NCBI GenBank assembly: GCA_020974905.1 | Contig: CP087563.1 | Coordinates: forward strand, 992,001-1,056,000 | Direction of reading: 5' to 3' | Source of the DNA: Planctomycetes bacterium syqfu | GTDB taxonomy: Bacteria; Planctomycetota; Phycisphaerae; Phycisphaerales; Phycisphaeraceae | DNA length: 64,000 bases | Shown: one piece after another, positions 15,778-22,045 of the stretch | Position numbering within the stretch: the stretch's first letter is position 1 | How the letters are laid out: each line of letters starts with the position of its first letter | Program-made: the position numbers and the translations under genes | Notes under the pieces: generated by a model | Seen by the model: only the letters and a program-made list of their open reading frames with translations | Databases searched by the model: none | Told to the model about the DNA's origin: nothing

Positions 15778-17154
15778 TCACTTCACCGTCACCGGCACGT
15801 CCTTGATCGTGATCGCCCCATCCCAATACTCGGTGAGATACGTCGTTTTTTCCGCGACCTCAACATTGGGGGTTAGCAGCACATCCACCGTATCACCATC
15901 CTTGATATTGATGCGATGTCGACCTCCAATCCACCATCCAGATTGTTTGTTGGCTGGAACGTGGACGCTGCTCATTCGCTGCGTTTGATCTTGACACCGA
16001 ATCGAGACATCAAAGGCGATCGGCTTGGGCAACATGTTAAAATCCAATTCGACATCCCAATCCGCATATTTCTCGGGCTTGTATGTCAGCTTCACGGTGA
16101 TGGATTGAACCATCTGCTTCCGAAGGCTTTCATCGACAATCGGCGTCACCGTTGATGTCCCCTTGGGCACAAACTGGACATCCTGCTCAAACTTCAATTC
16201 ACGTTCCAAAATATCCAGGCCATCATGTTCCAGGGGTAAAGGTCGTAGCGCCGGATCGTAAAGCTGGCATTGCATCCGGGCTGTGATCGTCTGTTTGCCC
16301 ACCGCGATTTTCTCCCACTGTTTCTTCTTGATGTGCAATATGAAACTTGTTGAACCACCGCTATGTGTGGCAATGGATGTCTCCCCCAATTCACGGGTGT
16401 AAAGGTGTAAATCACCAAGCATGAACTTCAACTCACGCTTGGCACACCAAAGGTCAGCGCGTCCCATTCGTGAAGGATTTTTTGACAGACTCACGACGAT
16501 CCATTTGCCATGTTCAATGTCATTGCGGATGGTCATAACATAAAGTTGGTCGATGATGGTTTGTCGGTATGTGTCCCACTGCTGCTGTGACAGGATGCCC
16601 GTTGCATGCATTTTTTCGACAACATCCCCCGCATCGACATACCACTTTCGCGTGATATCCGACTGGAGTTTCATGGCATCCTGCGTGAGAGCCTGCTTCT
16701 GAGCATAAGACAGCTTTCCTATATTCAACCGATCACTGAGGATGTCCCACGATTCTTTTGCCAGCGATGTATCGTTGTTGACCTGGCTGCGCAGATACCA
16801 GGTCGGTGCTTTGCTTAACCAATGGACCTGGCCTGCGATTCGGATGGCATTGGGGACGCACAAGCCAATCACTGTCAGCATCACCAAGCCACCAATGAGC
16901 ATGCGTTTTTTCTGACGTTGCCGATTGCCTTGCACGATGGTTTTGGGTGACAAGCGCGTGCCACATTCCGGGCAGGCTTGTTGATCATCGGGCAATCCGG
17001 TCAAATCAAACCGACACCTGGCACACAACGGATGGTTATCAACCTTCCGCCCACGAAATCCCAGGATAAGCGCACGCAAACCAGCAAGGAATATCAACAG
17101 GTATATGCCGATGCCGATCAGCGTGCCAATGTCGTTTGAAACCCTCACTGTCAA
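15778..17154 (-). CDS. Zinc-ribbon membrane protein, third of three tandem paralogues
   Basis: A 458-residue protein with a first membrane helix (about 12-33) and the linker GFRGRKVDNHPLCARCRFDL. A four-Cys zinc ribbon follows (Cys44, 47, 61, 64; C-x2-C-x13-C-x2-C), then GNRQRQKKR, a second helix (about 84-103) and a large domain of about 350 residues. The C-terminus has the family end motif LTEYWDGAITIKDVPVTVK. Together with the next two genes upstream it forms a tandem paralogue set. Topology suggests a cytoplasmic zinc ribbon between two helices and a large extracytoplasmic domain. The function is unknown. Confidence 0.75.
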   Translation of the reverse strand: MTVRVSNDIGTLIGIGIYLLIFLAGLRALILGFRGRKVDNHPLCARCRFDLTGLPDDQQACPECGTRLSPKTIVQGNRQRQKKRMLIGGLVMLTVIGLCVPNAIRIAGQVHWLSKAPTWYLRSQVNNDTSLAKESWDILSDRLNIGKLSYAQKQALTQDAMKLQSDITRKWYVDAGDVVEKMHATGILSQQQWDTYRQTIIDQLYVMTIRNDIEHGKWIVVSLSKNPSRMGRADLWCAKRELKFMLGDLHLYTRELGETSIATHSGGSTSFILHIKKKQWEKIAVGKQTITARMQCQLYDPALRPLPLEHDGLDILERELKFEQDVQFVPKGTSTVTPIVDESLRKQMVQSITVKLTYKPEKYADWDVELDFNMLPKPIAFDVSIRCQDQTQRMSSVHVPANKQSGWWIGGRHRINIKDGDTVDVLLTPNVEVAEKTTYLTEYWDGAITIKDVPVTVK

Positions 17155-17212
17155 TGATCTACTCCCGGTCGATGTGCAATCAAAACTGAATCACTACCAA
17201 TACGCATGATCA

Positions 17213-18676
17213 TCATCCTTCGGGCTTTCGTATCACCGGCACATCCTTGAAAACAATCTCATGATCCCAATACTCCGTAATGTCCAGTGACTCGGCGGCG
17301 GCCTTTTCGCTGGGGATCAACAGGATGTCCGCCTGGTCAAAATCCTTGGTTTTGAATTTCTTCCACCAGTTGAAAATCGGGTTGCGACACCTGCCTTTGA
17401 CGGATTGATTGTCACGTTCTTTAACCAGTCGCCCCAGTAGAAGCTGCTCATCACCAACGCGCATGTAGACTTCGTGTGCATAGGGTTTGGGATGCGTGCC
17501 GGTGAGAATTTCAAAGCGGATATCCTTACCATTATAGAGGATATTGATCTGCTCCAGTTTCATGTCCTGCGTCATGGCTTCGCGTAAAGATTCATCTTTA
17601 ATGGGGGTGACGATTTGTGTGCCAACGGGTTTGATGGACAGATCTGCATGAAAGGTCTTGGTTGTTAACAGCATGCCCGGTACAGGGTAAATAGGCTGGC
17701 CTTGATCATCAAACTTGAGTTTCTCCGTGACGTAGTCTTCATCACCATGATCGTAATACCAGGCACCGGTCACGATCAGGAACGTATGCTCAAGCTTCAA
17801 ATCGTAATCACCGGGTTTGATTTGCTGCCATTCTTCGGTGCTGATTCGTAATTGAGAATCGAACCCACCGCTGTAACCTGCCCTTAGCGGTATTGAACTG
17901 TGAAACTGAAACGCAGGAAGCTTTTGCTTGTCCAGATAGGGTTGGTTCATCCCATTGATACATCGCAGGTCGACACTGCCCAGTCGTGGCCGATTCATGG
18001 TCATGCGATAGGCAATGTGTTGGCCGTGTTCGACGGTTTTGCGGATTTGAAAATTTGCTGCTGAATCCAAGGCAGTCTGACAATATTGCTGCCAGTCATT
18101 TTCGCTGAGTGTGCCGTTGGCGTAGGCTTTTTCGATCAACTCACCGGCAGATTGATCCCACGTTCGGTTCATGTCCGCCTGCAATTCAAGTGCGTCTGCC
18201 AGCAGTGTCCTTAGTTGGTGTCCTGCAAGTTGCTTGTTATCCAATCGCCCTGCCAGGATTGCCCATGATCGTGCTGCCCATTGGCTGTCAAGTTCGACCT
18301 GTTTTTGCAAAAACCAATTGGGCATCTGTGCCAACCAGTTCACCCGGCGCATTTTGCCTGCTGCCAAGCCACCTAGTGACAGACAGACAAAACCAACGAG
18401 CAATAAACCTGACACCACGCGCAGGCGACTGCGTCGACGGTTGCCGTGTTGGATGTGATGGTGGTTGGCAATGTTCTGCCCACACTCCGGGCAATTTGTT
18501 GTGTCTGTTGGTAATCCAAACAAATCAAACCGGCACTTGCGACAAACCGGGTGATCATCCAGCTTGCGTCCCCGCCAGCCGGTGATCAGCAGGTAGACGC
18601 CAAGCCCAATGACGAACAGGCAACAGAGAACCAGAAAAGTAAGCGTCAGGAATGTCACTGGCAAAGGCGTGTTCAT
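17213..18676 (-). CDS. Zinc-ribbon membrane protein, second of three tandem paralogues
   Basis: A 487-residue paralogue. The start MNTPLPVTF is chosen because its ATG overlaps the TGA of the preceding gene (ATGA at 18673-18676), a sign of translational coupling; a longer in-frame start lies inside that gene. Helix 1 is at about 8-33, then GWRGRKLDDHPVCRKCRFDL with Cys45, 48, 62 and 65, GNRRRSR, and helix 2 at about 87-107. The large domain ends with SLDITEYWDHEIVFKDVPV. It lies 58 bp before the third paralogue. No enzymatic motif was recognised. Confidence 0.75.
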   Translation of the reverse strand: MNTPLPVTFLTLTFLVLCCLFVIGLGVYLLITGWRGRKLDDHPVCRKCRFDLFGLPTDTTNCPECGQNIANHHHIQHGNRRRSRLRVVSGLLLVGFVCLSLGGLAAGKMRRVNWLAQMPNWFLQKQVELDSQWAARSWAILAGRLDNKQLAGHQLRTLLADALELQADMNRTWDQSAGELIEKAYANGTLSENDWQQYCQTALDSAANFQIRKTVEHGQHIAYRMTMNRPRLGSVDLRCINGMNQPYLDKQKLPAFQFHSSIPLRAGYSGGFDSQLRISTEEWQQIKPGDYDLKLEHTFLIVTGAWYYDHGDEDYVTEKLKFDDQGQPIYPVPGMLLTTKTFHADLSIKPVGTQIVTPIKDESLREAMTQDMKLEQINILYNGKDIRFEILTGTHPKPYAHEVYMRVGDEQLLLGRLVKERDNQSVKGRCRNPIFNWWKKFKTKDFDQADILLIPSEKAAAESLDITEYWDHEIVFKDVPVIRKPEG

Positions 18677-20046
18677 TGTGTTTCCAACTTCACTGGCACG
18701 GCTTTGAAAACCAACTCGCCATCCCAATATTCGGTGATATCCAACGACCGACGCGCAGCCTCGGCACTGGGTGTGAGAACGACGTCGACTTTTTGAATGC
18801 TTGCGTTGATCAGGTCATCGAAAAAGCCATGCCTTGCTCCCATTAATGATCTTCTCTTGGGAATGCGTATCAAAGGCTCCAACGGATAAGCCTGTCCTTC
18901 AATCAAAGCCTTCATCTCCCATACCAAAGCGATCGGCGTATTCTGAGCATTTGTAAAAACAACCAATTTCCCGTCCGTTGGCCTGAAAGTAACCTTTTGA
19001 ATCTCAAATGATTCTTCAACTGCCGCCTTGTAAAACGCATTCTTGATTGGTTTCACGCAAGATTGACCTGGTGGCAAAATCTCAATCTCCGATTCCGATT
19101 CAAAATCGCGAACAAAGACTTCGCCGGATTTGGAACTCATTGTTCCTGTTTTCAAGTCATACAGTCTTTTAAAGGCATATTCCTGGGACATCATGTAACG
19201 GAGCTTCACCTTACCCGTTGGCAAAGTGCTCCAATCTTCATTGTCAGATCGTTTCAAGGAATAGATTCGCCCGTCATTGACCTGTAGGCGATTCGCTCCT
19301 CTGGTACCCAGAAAATCCAATCGTAATGTTCCTGTTCGTTTGGGGTGATGATGAAATGTCTCGTAGTAAGGCCTGCTACCATGCTCGATGACGGGGCGAA
19401 ATTGAACCTTCAATACAGCCACTTGTTCATCAAGCACATTGTTGACGTAGCGCATCCACAGGTCATCATCGAGTAATTGCTGTTCGTGGACTTTCTCAAT
19501 CCAAAGGTCGGCTTCCTTGACCCAATCTCGATCCTTGTCTTCCTGCAATTTGAGAGCCAGTCGTGCCACGCGGTTGGCTTGCGATTTTGAGACGCGTGAT
19601 GTTTCGAGTTGTTTGTAGGTTTTCTTCCAATCTTCCTGTGAGTGCAATTCCGCAGCCATGGCAAACTTGGGCATGGTCAAGGCAGGCATCTGTGGCAACC
19701 AATCCAAACTGCGTATGCCGGGGAAGATCGCGAAAACACCCAAGACACCGGCAAGCAGAACACCTCCAAATCCTGTCACGATTTTGCCCTTTTGTTTTTT
19801 GCGATTCCCCACGCGGACATCTTTGCGGTAGCGTAACGGTCGATTGCATTTGGGACAGTTACGGACGGCATTGGTGCTGCCATACAGATCATGGCCACAG
19901 GTTCGACACAGCGGATGCCCATCGATCTTTTTGCCACGATTTCCAGTGATAAACAGGACCAAACTCAACAGAAACAACATACCACCAACGATGAGCAGCA
20001 TGATCATGGTCATGTCGGATGGATTGGCTACAGACAGATCGTGCAT
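18673..20046 (-). CDS. Zinc-ribbon membrane protein, first of three tandem paralogues
   Basis: A 457-residue paralogue and the first gene of the set in transcription order. Helix 1 is at about 14-35, followed by GNRGKKIDGHPLCRTCGHDL with Cys47, 50, 64 and 67, then GNRKKQKGK and helix 2 at about 88-110. The remaining part is the large domain, ending SLDITEYWDGELVFKAVPV. All three paralogues keep the R/N-G-[RK]-K-[IVL]-D-x-H-P-[LV]-C block and the terminal EYWD block, while the middle is much more variable. The gene is divergent from ftr with 72 bp between. Confidence 0.75.
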   Translation of the reverse strand: MHDLSVANPSDMTMIMLLIVGGMLFLLSLVLFITGNRGKKIDGHPLCRTCGHDLYGSTNAVRNCPKCNRPLRYRKDVRVGNRKKQKGKIVTGFGGVLLAGVLGVFAIFPGIRSLDWLPQMPALTMPKFAMAAELHSQEDWKKTYKQLETSRVSKSQANRVARLALKLQEDKDRDWVKEADLWIEKVHEQQLLDDDLWMRYVNNVLDEQVAVLKVQFRPVIEHGSRPYYETFHHHPKRTGTLRLDFLGTRGANRLQVNDGRIYSLKRSDNEDWSTLPTGKVKLRYMMSQEYAFKRLYDLKTGTMSSKSGEVFVRDFESESEIEILPPGQSCVKPIKNAFYKAAVEESFEIQKVTFRPTDGKLVVFTNAQNTPIALVWEMKALIEGQAYPLEPLIRIPKRRSLMGARHGFFDDLINASIQKVDVVLTPSAEAARRSLDITEYWDGELVFKAVPVKLETQ

Positions 20047-20118: not shown

Positions 20119-21045
20119 ATGTCTGATCTGCCCAACCCCACCCTGATTATCGACACCTTTGCTGAAGCGTTTGGCATGTGGTGTTGCCGATTGATTGTCA
20201 CTGCGTCTGACTCTTATTGGGTGAAGATGGCAGCCCAACATGCGACGGGTTATGGCACGAGCATCATCGGCTGTGACTGTGAAGCAGGTGTGGAAAATTA
20301 CCTGTCCCCGGATCAAACGCCTGACGGCAGACCGGGTGTGAGTCTGCTTTTTTTTGCAATCAAGTCCGAGCAATTGGCCCAGGCGGTGGTCAATCGTGCA
20401 GGCCAGTGTTTGATGACCACACCGACGACAGCAGTGTATGACGGGTTTAACGATGTCATCGACGATGCCCAAGCCAAAACAAAACGCGTTGCGTTGGGGG
20501 AGTACATCAGTTATTTCGGGGACGGGTTTGAAACGCAAAGCCAACAAGCCCAACGCGACGGCTGGGACATCCCGGTGATGGAAGGCAGCTTTTTCGTGCA
20601 GTCGGACATGGGCATGCGGTTAGGTGTCGGTGGCGGGAACCTGCTGGTCTGCGGCCGTGATCAACGCTTGACACTCAACGCAGCCAAACATGCGGTGGAT
20701 GCGATGCGAATGGTGCCGGGAACCATCATGCCGTTCCCGGGTGGGATTGTGCGTTGCGGGTCCAAAGTGGGTTCACTGCGTGATTCGCAAATGATCGCAT
20801 CGACGAATCACCACTATTGCCCGACACTGGCAGATCATCCTGACAGTCAACTGCCAGCAGGGACAACAACTGTCTATGAGTTGATTGTTGACGGGATTGA
20901 TCTTGATACAGTCAAGCAGGCGATGAAGGCTGGACTAACCTGCCTGATTAAGCAGGACATCATTGCGATCACTGCAGGGAATTATGACGGCAAACTGGGA
21001 CGGTACCAGATTCGATTGCACGAGTTGGTTGATGAATTGTTATGA
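20119..21045 (+). CDS. ftr: Formylmethanofuran-tetrahydromethanopterin N-formyltransferase
   Basis: A 308-residue enzyme of tetrahydromethanopterin-linked C1 metabolism that moves the formyl group between methanofuran and the pterin. Characteristic blocks are IIDTFAEAFGMW at the start, HATGYGTSIIGCDCEAG, the TPDGRPGVSL motif, GQCLMTTPTTA, and PFPGGIVRCGSKVGS, plus the end AGNYDGKLGRYQIRLHEL. In bacteria the gene (also called fhcD) supports formaldehyde or formate oxidation. Mch follows 70 bp downstream. The companion fhcABC, fae and mtd genes are not in the window. Confidence 0.92.
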   Translation: MSDLPNPTLIIDTFAEAFGMWCCRLIVTASDSYWVKMAAQHATGYGTSIIGCDCEAGVENYLSPDQTPDGRPGVSLLFFAIKSEQLAQAVVNRAGQCLMTTPTTAVYDGFNDVIDDAQAKTKRVALGEYISYFGDGFETQSQQAQRDGWDIPVMEGSFFVQSDMGMRLGVGGGNLLVCGRDQRLTLNAAKHAVDAMRMVPGTIMPFPGGIVRCGSKVGSLRDSQMIASTNHHYCPTLADHPDSQLPAGTTTVYELIVDGIDLDTVKQAMKAGLTCLIKQDIIAITAGNYDGKLGRYQIRLHELVDELL

Positions 21046-21115
21046 TGTCTGCCTATTTGACCGATGTCAGTCGGGTAGTGATTAAACTTTGCCAGTGGTG
21101 TGAAATGAGGATTCG

Positions 21116-22045
21116 ATGACGACCAAGGAAGTACCGGGACTCAATGACCGGGCCCTGATTCTGGTGGACGAAATGCAGCGTTGTTCAGCCGAGTTGGGCA
21201 TCAAACGCGGCAGCGTGGTGGGGTCCCGTGTGATTGATTCGGGGATCGAATCCCGCGGCGGACTTCGCGCAGGTTTGATGGCTGCACAAATTGCCATGGC
21301 CAACCTGGGGACGGTGAGTCTTGTCCCCAATCCCGATCCTTCACAGATGACGCCAGCCGTCGCCGTGAACATCAACCATCCGGTGGCAGCCTGTGTGGTG
21401 TGTCAACATGACGGTTGGGTGATCGAGGAAGAGGAAACCGGTTTTAAAACCCGTGGCTCAGGGCCATTCCGAGCAGCGTATGGTCGTGAAGATCTCTATG
21501 AAATTTTTGGTTTCAGGGAACGGACCGGTTGTGCAGTCGGTGTGATCGAAACACAAACCATCCCCTCCCGTGCGTTGGTTCACGACCTGTCAATCAAGTG
21601 CGGTGTTCAGCAACATCATGTCGCGCTGATTTGTGTGAATCCAGATAGCCTGGCAGGTAGTGTCCTCACGGCATCACGTAGCGTGGAATGGGCCTTGATG
21701 AAGCTGCATCTACTCAACTTCAACATCAAGCGCATTGTCAGTGGCTACGGTATCTGCCCGCTTGGTACAGTCGGTGGCGGATTGAATCGGTCGGTTGGTC
21801 AAGCCTACGATCAAATGATCTATCACAGCCAGGTGACGTTGTATGCAGTCGGTGATGATGACACGTTAGCCAGCGTGGTCACTCAACTGCCCTCCAACAC
21901 TTCATCGCTTTACGGCCAACGTGCTGAAAGTCTCCTTTCACTGGATCATGATCCGACGTCCAAGCTCGATACTGGTCTGATGGCGCCTGCCAAAGTCTGT
22001 ATTCAGAACATTGAAACAGGCGTCTGTCACCTCAGTGATGTCTGA
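21116..22045 (+). CDS. mch: Methenyltetrahydromethanopterin cyclohydrolase
   Basis: A 309-residue enzyme that interconverts methenyl- and formyl-tetrahydromethanopterin, the step next to Ftr. Family features are GIESRGGLRAGLMAA, AACVVCQHDGWVI, GSGPFRAAYGREDLYE, GVIETQTIPS and the late SGYGICPLGTVGGG segment. Its length is normal. The start codon has GAGG 7 bp upstream. With ftr it makes a two-gene C1 unit, so the host probably makes methanopterin-type cofactors. Confidence 0.92.
   Translation: MTTKEVPGLNDRALILVDEMQRCSAELGIKRGSVVGSRVIDSGIESRGGLRAGLMAAQIAMANLGTVSLVPNPDPSQMTPAVAVNINHPVAACVVCQHDGWVIEEEETGFKTRGSGPFRAAYGREDLYEIFGFRERTGCAVGVIETQTIPSRALVHDLSIKCGVQQHHVALICVNPDSLAGSVLTASRSVEWALMKLHLLNFNIKRIVSGYGICPLGTVGGGLNRSVGQAYDQMIYHSQVTLYAVGDDDTLASVVTQLPSNTSSLYGQRAESLLSLDHDPTSKLDTGLMAPAKVCIQNIETGVCHLSDV

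Follow-up and report, generated by a model that had tools for sequence, protein, structure and literature searches.

The three tandem genes at positions 15778 to 20046 of the window (the whole 64,000-nucleotide stretch of planctomycete DNA that was analysed) are an ordinary small array, and the interesting part is the expanding family to which they belong, which is spread across the class Phycisphaerae. Each protein is predicted to cross the inner membrane twice. The loop between the two crossings would be cytoplasmic and positively charged and would carry a four-cysteine ribbon, and HEAT-like helices and two Ig-like sandwiches would lie outside. The reading that we prefer, with a probability of about 40%, is that the family forms a membrane-anchored repertoire in which one constant docking ribbon is combined with many variable ectodomains. 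The genes and their shared motifs are located as follows.

20046-18673, minus strand: gene 1, ATG start, 457 aa, a paralogue with transmembrane (TM) helix, ribbon, TM helix and ectodomain
18676-17213, minus strand: gene 2, ATG start, 487 aa, a paralogue
17154-15778, minus strand: gene 3, TTG start, 458 aa, the member of the trio for which syntenic orthologues are clear, in G001 (96%) and G003 (43%)
18673-18676, minus strand: ATGA overlap of the gene 1 stop and the gene 2 ATG, dependent on the ATG chosen for gene 2
19846-19908, minus strand: C-x2-C-x13-C-x2-C ribbon of gene 1
18482-18544, minus strand: C-x2-C-x13-C-x2-C ribbon of gene 2
16963-17025, minus strand: C-x2-C-x13-C-x2-C ribbon of gene 3
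15820-15831, minus strand: EYWD of gene 3

The end-to-end similarity of the three genes, which is far beyond chance, indicates that they are true full-length paralogues. Pairwise BLASTP comparisons gave E values of 5e-75 (33% identity over 484 columns), 2e-41 (25%), and 2e-46 (26%). All three have the ribbon inside a G-[RK]-K-x-D-x-H-P-x-C block and end in the EYWD block, and the earlier description of three tandem genes with two membrane helices and these two blocks was confirmed on the minus strand. Their homology over the whole length also speaks against copies that are unrelated. The ribbon (45-67% identity) and the last 28 residues (43-64%) are the most similar parts; the helical part is less so (24-41%), and identity is low in the TM helices (14-29%) and in the first (19-22%) and second (11-31%) Ig-like domains. 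The earlier note had the genes differing in the middle; the middle has indeed diverged, but it is still homologous. The ATG at 18676 was chosen as the start of gene 2, the alternative in the list of open reading frames (ORFs) being a TTG at 18727 (504 aa), and with this ATG the overlap of genes 1 and 2 is found at 18676-18673 as had been claimed. Genes 2 and 3 are spaced by 58 bp. A promoter and terminator scan found six promoter-like sites against a mean of 5.2 and nine terminator-like sites against 5.0 (sd 2.1); both of the minus-strand terminator-like sites lie inside gene 1, so the scan is silent on cotranscription. Divergent from the trio, at 20119-22045 on the plus strand, are the genes for formylmethanofuran:tetrahydromethanopterin formyltransferase (FTR) and methenyl-H4MPT cyclohydrolase (MCH), both confirmed by Pfam.

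Most of the protein is predicted to lie outside the cytoplasm. An AlphaFold2 model was made from gene 3 and ten family sequences (mean pLDDT 85, pTM 0.65), and the helical part modelled alone had a mean pLDDT of 90. The following parts were distinguished.

17053-17130, minus strand: TM helix 1 of gene 3, residues 9-34, from the model and the charge analysis
16828-16911, minus strand: TM helix 2 of gene 3, residues 82-109, from the model and the charge analysis
16543-16821, minus strand: HEAT/ARM-like helical domain of gene 3, residues 112-204, predicted extracytoplasmic, from the model
16165-16542, minus strand: Ig-like beta sandwich 1 of gene 3, residues 205-330, from the model
15781-16131, minus strand: Ig-like beta sandwich 2 of gene 3, residues 342-458, which includes EYWD, from the model

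Topology was assigned by comparing lysine and arginine in the two 15-residue stretches of the ribbon loop beside the TM helices with those in the two outer flanks. The test examined 95 members, of which 10 lack a ribbon that fits the regular expression and 2 have no room to score. In all of the 83 scorable members the ribbon loop carries more lysine and arginine than the outer flanks (mean 9.2 versus 2.3), and because of this bias the ribbon is predicted to be cytoplasmic and the C-terminal part extracytoplasmic. An architecture of TM helix, cytoplasmic four-cysteine ribbon, TM helix, and an extracytoplasmic part of about 350 residues is thus well supported by prediction. Some members depart from this arrangement. 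One in the window's own genome (L154 7456-9492, at 5.28 Mb) carries a second ribbon and is predicted to have four TM helices, which looks like a duplication of its N-terminal module. Two family ORFs are very long, about 850-890 aa (L137 4589-7144 and L138 5318-7990), and may be fused tandem copies.

The ribbon is retained in most of the family. It was found in 85 of the 95 members and in 43 of the 49 family ORFs of strain ZRK32, and the residues that flank its cysteines are conserved as well. Ribbons of the type CxxCxYxL...CPECG also occur in several further small membrane proteins of the window's own genome (L015, L016, L018, L020, L022, L023, and L025). Retention of the four cysteines would be expected of a metal or redox sensor, in which the ribbon reads zinc or oxidation and the ectodomain transmits the signal or is controlled by it. 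Against this, conservation extends to the residues around the cysteines and a similar motif is present in unrelated membrane proteins of the genome, which together suggest a structural module in common use. Nor did a regulator or redox gene turn up repeatedly among the neighbours of many loci, and a sensor is very unlikely.

The family has no match among the characterised families searched. No family match to the trio above cut-off was found in Pfam, NCBIfam, or PADLOC, and no paper on the family was found among the titles and abstract openings covered by the literature searches, so the suggestion that the system is undescribed holds within these sources. The closest profiles are those of DZR-type zinc ribbons (PF12773, PF13240, PF13248, and PF18912), which share the CxxC...CxxC knuckles and give weak scores to the ribbon. 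Unlike these, each protein of the trio has one ribbon only, placed in a distinct block that its two TM helices enclose, and the scores are all below the cut-offs: in Pfam DZR, genes 3 and 1 scored 14.8 and 13.9 bits and gene 2 was unlisted (gathering cut-off 27.3), while the best NCBIfam score was 13.3 bits against a cut-off of 32. Thirteen members had no match to Pfam repeat families at an E value of 0.1. In PDB sequences, a profile search matched zinc fingers, ribosomal L37, and proteins like them to the ribbon region and gave one weak match to the helical part. TcaA-type proteins have a cytoplasmic ribbon, a TM helix, and extracellular domains. They would resemble the family in having the ribbon inside and a large domain outside, but in the family the ribbon lies between two TM helices.

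Structure comparisons point to common folds. Foldseek/VIA-align searches with the sandwiches returned transglutaminase C-terminal domains, Spo0M, arrestins, PapD-type pilus chaperones, and RbmA. These Ig-like or FnIII proteins share the sandwich fold (Z up to 8.4, with an rmsd of about 3 across some 110 residues), but identity is at most 12% in the listed alignments, and the family differs in domain context and in its membrane anchor. The Z scores of the RbmA, PapD, and transglutaminase domains, about 6.6-8.4, are in a range that the tool calls possibly unspecific, and the profile search of PDB sequences gave no sequence match to these domains. The helical part resembles the helix-pair solenoid of HEAT/ARM proteins such as karyopherin-beta2, the beta subunits of AP-1 and AP-2, and TOG domains (Z up to 8.4 over 96 residues), but it has only about two repeats, and the best Foldseek E value was 1.8. 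The Ig-like and HEAT-like scores of the modelled domains say common fold and no specific relative. An analogy with membrane coats, in which a solenoid and an Ig-like domain are combined as in the adaptor beta subunits, was rejected, because the scores for these folds lack specificity and the prediction puts the ectodomain outside the cytoplasm. A defence system was also set aside, as PADLOC gave only a 37-residue match to a type I specificity subunit (E 0.0076) in one of the three proteins. A mobile or viral origin was rejected as well, since gene 2 had no tblastn match in plasmids or phages. A search of viral contigs with one ribbon-block pattern found no relative, and a structure search of the viral library BFVD gave generic matches only.

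The distribution of relatives suggests a family of the class Phycisphaerae. In draws that score only a few candidates per genome, 60 of 121 Phycisphaerales genomes were positive at an E value of 1e-10, and 74 of 248 Phycisphaerae genomes at 1e-8. A phylum-wide draw with four candidates scored per genome found 24 positives in 391 genomes, all in the window's own order; this understates the range, because 42 of the 74 positives in the class draw lie outside the order. Of 61 relatives, 41 match at 1e-3, many through the N-terminal ribbon region only. The named relatives are Phycisphaeraceae and Phycisphaerales assemblies and strain ZRK32; a metagenome-assembled genome titled Bradyrhizobium (L114) matches over 23 residues only and was not counted. 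Copies per genome were counted as the earlier note had proposed. When eight genomes were searched in full, each yielded between 4 and 53 matches at 1e-5, among them double matches to one protein and matches to the ribbon only. ZRK32 is a cultured planctomycete whose genus is placed in the class Phycisphaerae (PMC10945688). Twenty-two stretches of its complete genome contain 49 family ORFs at 1e-3, two of which overlap and are probably one broken gene; a further stretch completed one cut ORF and added none.

The trio itself is not a conserved unit, because two other genomes of the genus differ at this place. G003 has just one family gene between FTR and the downstream 196-aa gene, namely the gene 3 orthologue. 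In G001 the copy upstream of gene 3 is a different one: the contig ends within it and includes its 226 C-terminal residues, which are 26% identical to gene 2 and 24% identical to gene 1. G001 is a draft of 270 contigs, in which assembly artefacts are possible. The earlier note had taken the genes for a paralogous multi-subunit complex. The paralogy is true and the genes are tightly packed, but a complex defined by these three subunits is not supported. As a fixed hetero-oligomer, genes 1, 2, and 3 would be obligate subunits, and the ATGA overlap and the 58-bp spacing agree with that. The single gene in G003, the other paralogue in G001, and array sizes of one to eight speak against a subunit set that is conserved across species. 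Likewise in genus g37 the array beside the same gene, read from its sequence as PurM, has seven copies in G056, six in G044, three in G040, and one in G048. An obligate three-subunit complex is therefore unlikely.

Tandem duplication has enlarged the family many times over, and the copies of an array tend to group by lineage. Family loci hold one to eight copies, although the frequency of arrays is biased because some regions were picked for several search matches. In ZRK32, 37 of the 49 ORFs lie less than 400 bp from another on the same strand. Among 62 adjacent same-strand family pairs under 400 bp apart, 14 overlap (six by 4 bp and three by 1 bp) and 36 are spaced by 0-60 bp, where the most upstream possible starts were used except in the window. 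In a quick tree with SH-aLRT support, covering 80 of 94 rows, seven of the eight copies in G348 group together (support 90) and the eighth is found elsewhere. The copies of G451 and G466 group (99), as do the array copies of genus g37 (91), and the trio is placed with the copies of G003 and the orthologue from G001 (73). In a second tree the trio forms one clade (96).

Three arrays of ZRK32 give the best hint for a partnership between paralogues. In L181 (1970-1979 kb), L182 (2208-2216 kb), and L184 (3290-3296 kb), long paralogues of 473-545 aa alternate with short ones of 340-354 aa, the pair being repeated three, two, and two times. In each array the longs group together (99, 89, and 91) and so do the shorts (97, 93, and 96), which is most simply explained by the copying of a two-gene unit. 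The long runs into the short in four of the seven pairs, with an overlap of 4 bp in three of these and of 1 bp in the fourth. These repeated units are the other evidence in favour of a hetero-oligomer, and they keep co-assembly of paralogues plausible. Recent gene conversion among the ZRK32 paralogues was rejected, since the best 60 of 66 DNA matches include no long near-identical stretch; the sole identical 50-base match among them joins the two overlapping ORFs.

Gene neighbours were examined, as had been proposed, at 50 loci (49 regions and the window), and no widely conserved partner was found. No cluster of neighbours occurs in more than five genomes, and a conserved operon partner was rejected because the widest clusters reach five genomes and most others reflect synteny between close relatives. 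The widest is a prepilin-like gene (five genomes, by sequence reading), followed by TetR-like, PurM-like, and PhoU-domain genes in four genomes each, with PhoU confirmed by Pfam for two. The PhoU-domain gene lies upstream of family genes (L132 2947-3678, L136 3628-4404, L137 7166-7933, and L144 3395-4225) and is within 35 bp of them in L132, L136, and L137; Pfam was applied to L132 and L136. In three genomes of the genus, family genes stand directly before a polyphosphate kinase gene (L153 7297-9489, L159 6790-8983, and L160 6530-9144), as a pair or, in G003, as three ORFs; here Pfam was applied to L153.

Selection on the family is purifying but relaxed. Where it could be computed, dN/dS in orthologue pairs is 0.09-0.46, and most neighbours have 0.03-0.16. 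Between G000 and G001 the family genes have 0.09-0.33, and the neighbours mostly have a dS of 0.2-0.6, with a lipoprotein-like gene (dN/dS 0.26) and a pilin-like gene (dS 0.99, dN/dS 0.22) as exceptions. Family dS in this comparison is 1.8 at 5.34 Mb, where the upstream flank is divergent too (77% DNA identity), 2.4 at 3.87 Mb, 0.8 at 5.28 Mb, 0.5-0.6 at the 4.548/4.549 Mb pair, which is background, and 0.14 for gene 3. In other genera dN/dS is 0.18-0.46 and synonymous rates run from background to nearly four times those of the flanks. An exception among the controls there is a sugar-isomerase-like gene (dS 1.55) that is more diverged than the adjoining family gene; the controls of G451/G466 are themselves near saturation, and the orthologous array members of g37 (G044/G056) are only mildly elevated. 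The first 60 residues are at least as conserved as the middle in most orthologue pairs, with some exceptions. Several windows within genes have zero or saturated dS. No whole orthologous gene has a dN/dS above 1 where it was computed, so adaptive diversification is not demonstrated.

A scaffold under little constraint that drifts faster would fit these rates as well. The main rival reading is such a scaffold in the envelope: the proteins would space or stiffen it, the ribbon would be a structural knot, the ectodomains would drift, and array size would tune dosage. Such a role is consistent with purifying selection at ratios above those of most neighbours and with the lack of a widely conserved neighbour gene. 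RbmA is a biofilm scaffold, and it is the top Foldseek match, although as a generic fold match only. Simple drift would not be expected to produce the mosaic at 5.28 Mb described below, nor the excess of synonymous divergence over the flanks at three G000/G001 loci; a scaffold is somewhat less likely than the preferred reading.

The 5.28 Mb locus is a clear mosaic, in which the half with the TM helices and ribbon is near background divergence and the ectodomain has been replaced. Between G000 and G001, residues 1-256 are 91% identical and residues 257-619 are 42% identical. Synonymous differences are 168/228 (0.74) in residues 257-619 and 46/203 (0.23) in the rest (Fisher p 5e-27). Gene 3 hints at a second mosaic, with 22/44 in residues 1-61 and 17/265 in the rest (p 2e-11). 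Both p-values flatter the contrast, because the boundaries were chosen after the windows had been viewed. Sixty-codon windows of ten control genes, which include the 4.548/4.549 Mb family pair and leave out the pilin-like gene, range from 0.05 to 0.61, and single controls span up to 0.05-0.36 or 0.18-0.54. At 5.28 Mb the first four windows have 0.00-0.41 and the next six 0.67-0.86, clearly beyond the control spread. Gene 3, with 0.48 versus 0.03-0.14, is only moderately outside it. What can be relied on is the contrast inside the gene at 5.28 Mb, because a high dS at low identity owes something to alignment noise and the dS of housekeeping genes can be depressed by codon bias.

In the preferred reading, the ribbon, which is better conserved than most of the ectodomain, would give all members the same structural or docking site, used by one cytoplasmic partner that they share, and the ectodomains would each bind a different ligand, in the envelope or external. 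That the ectodomains recognise different partners is the step that we infer. Neighbouring copies would be translated together and may co-assemble, so that an array would supply alternative or mixed membrane-anchored binding proteins. There is a slim chance of something wider, a receptor system spread over the class and expanded by lineage, whose ectodomains would pass between strains as cassettes and be kept as coupled pairs within tandem arrays, serving in recognition of self, neighbour, prey, or phage. ZRK32 alone has 49 ORFs of a family that is unnamed in the libraries searched. If the reading with a constant ribbon and variable ectodomains is true, the class would possess many envelope proteins, for recognition or as scaffolds, that have gone unrecognised, and the shared ribbon would point to a single cytoplasmic partner that could be obtained with any one member.
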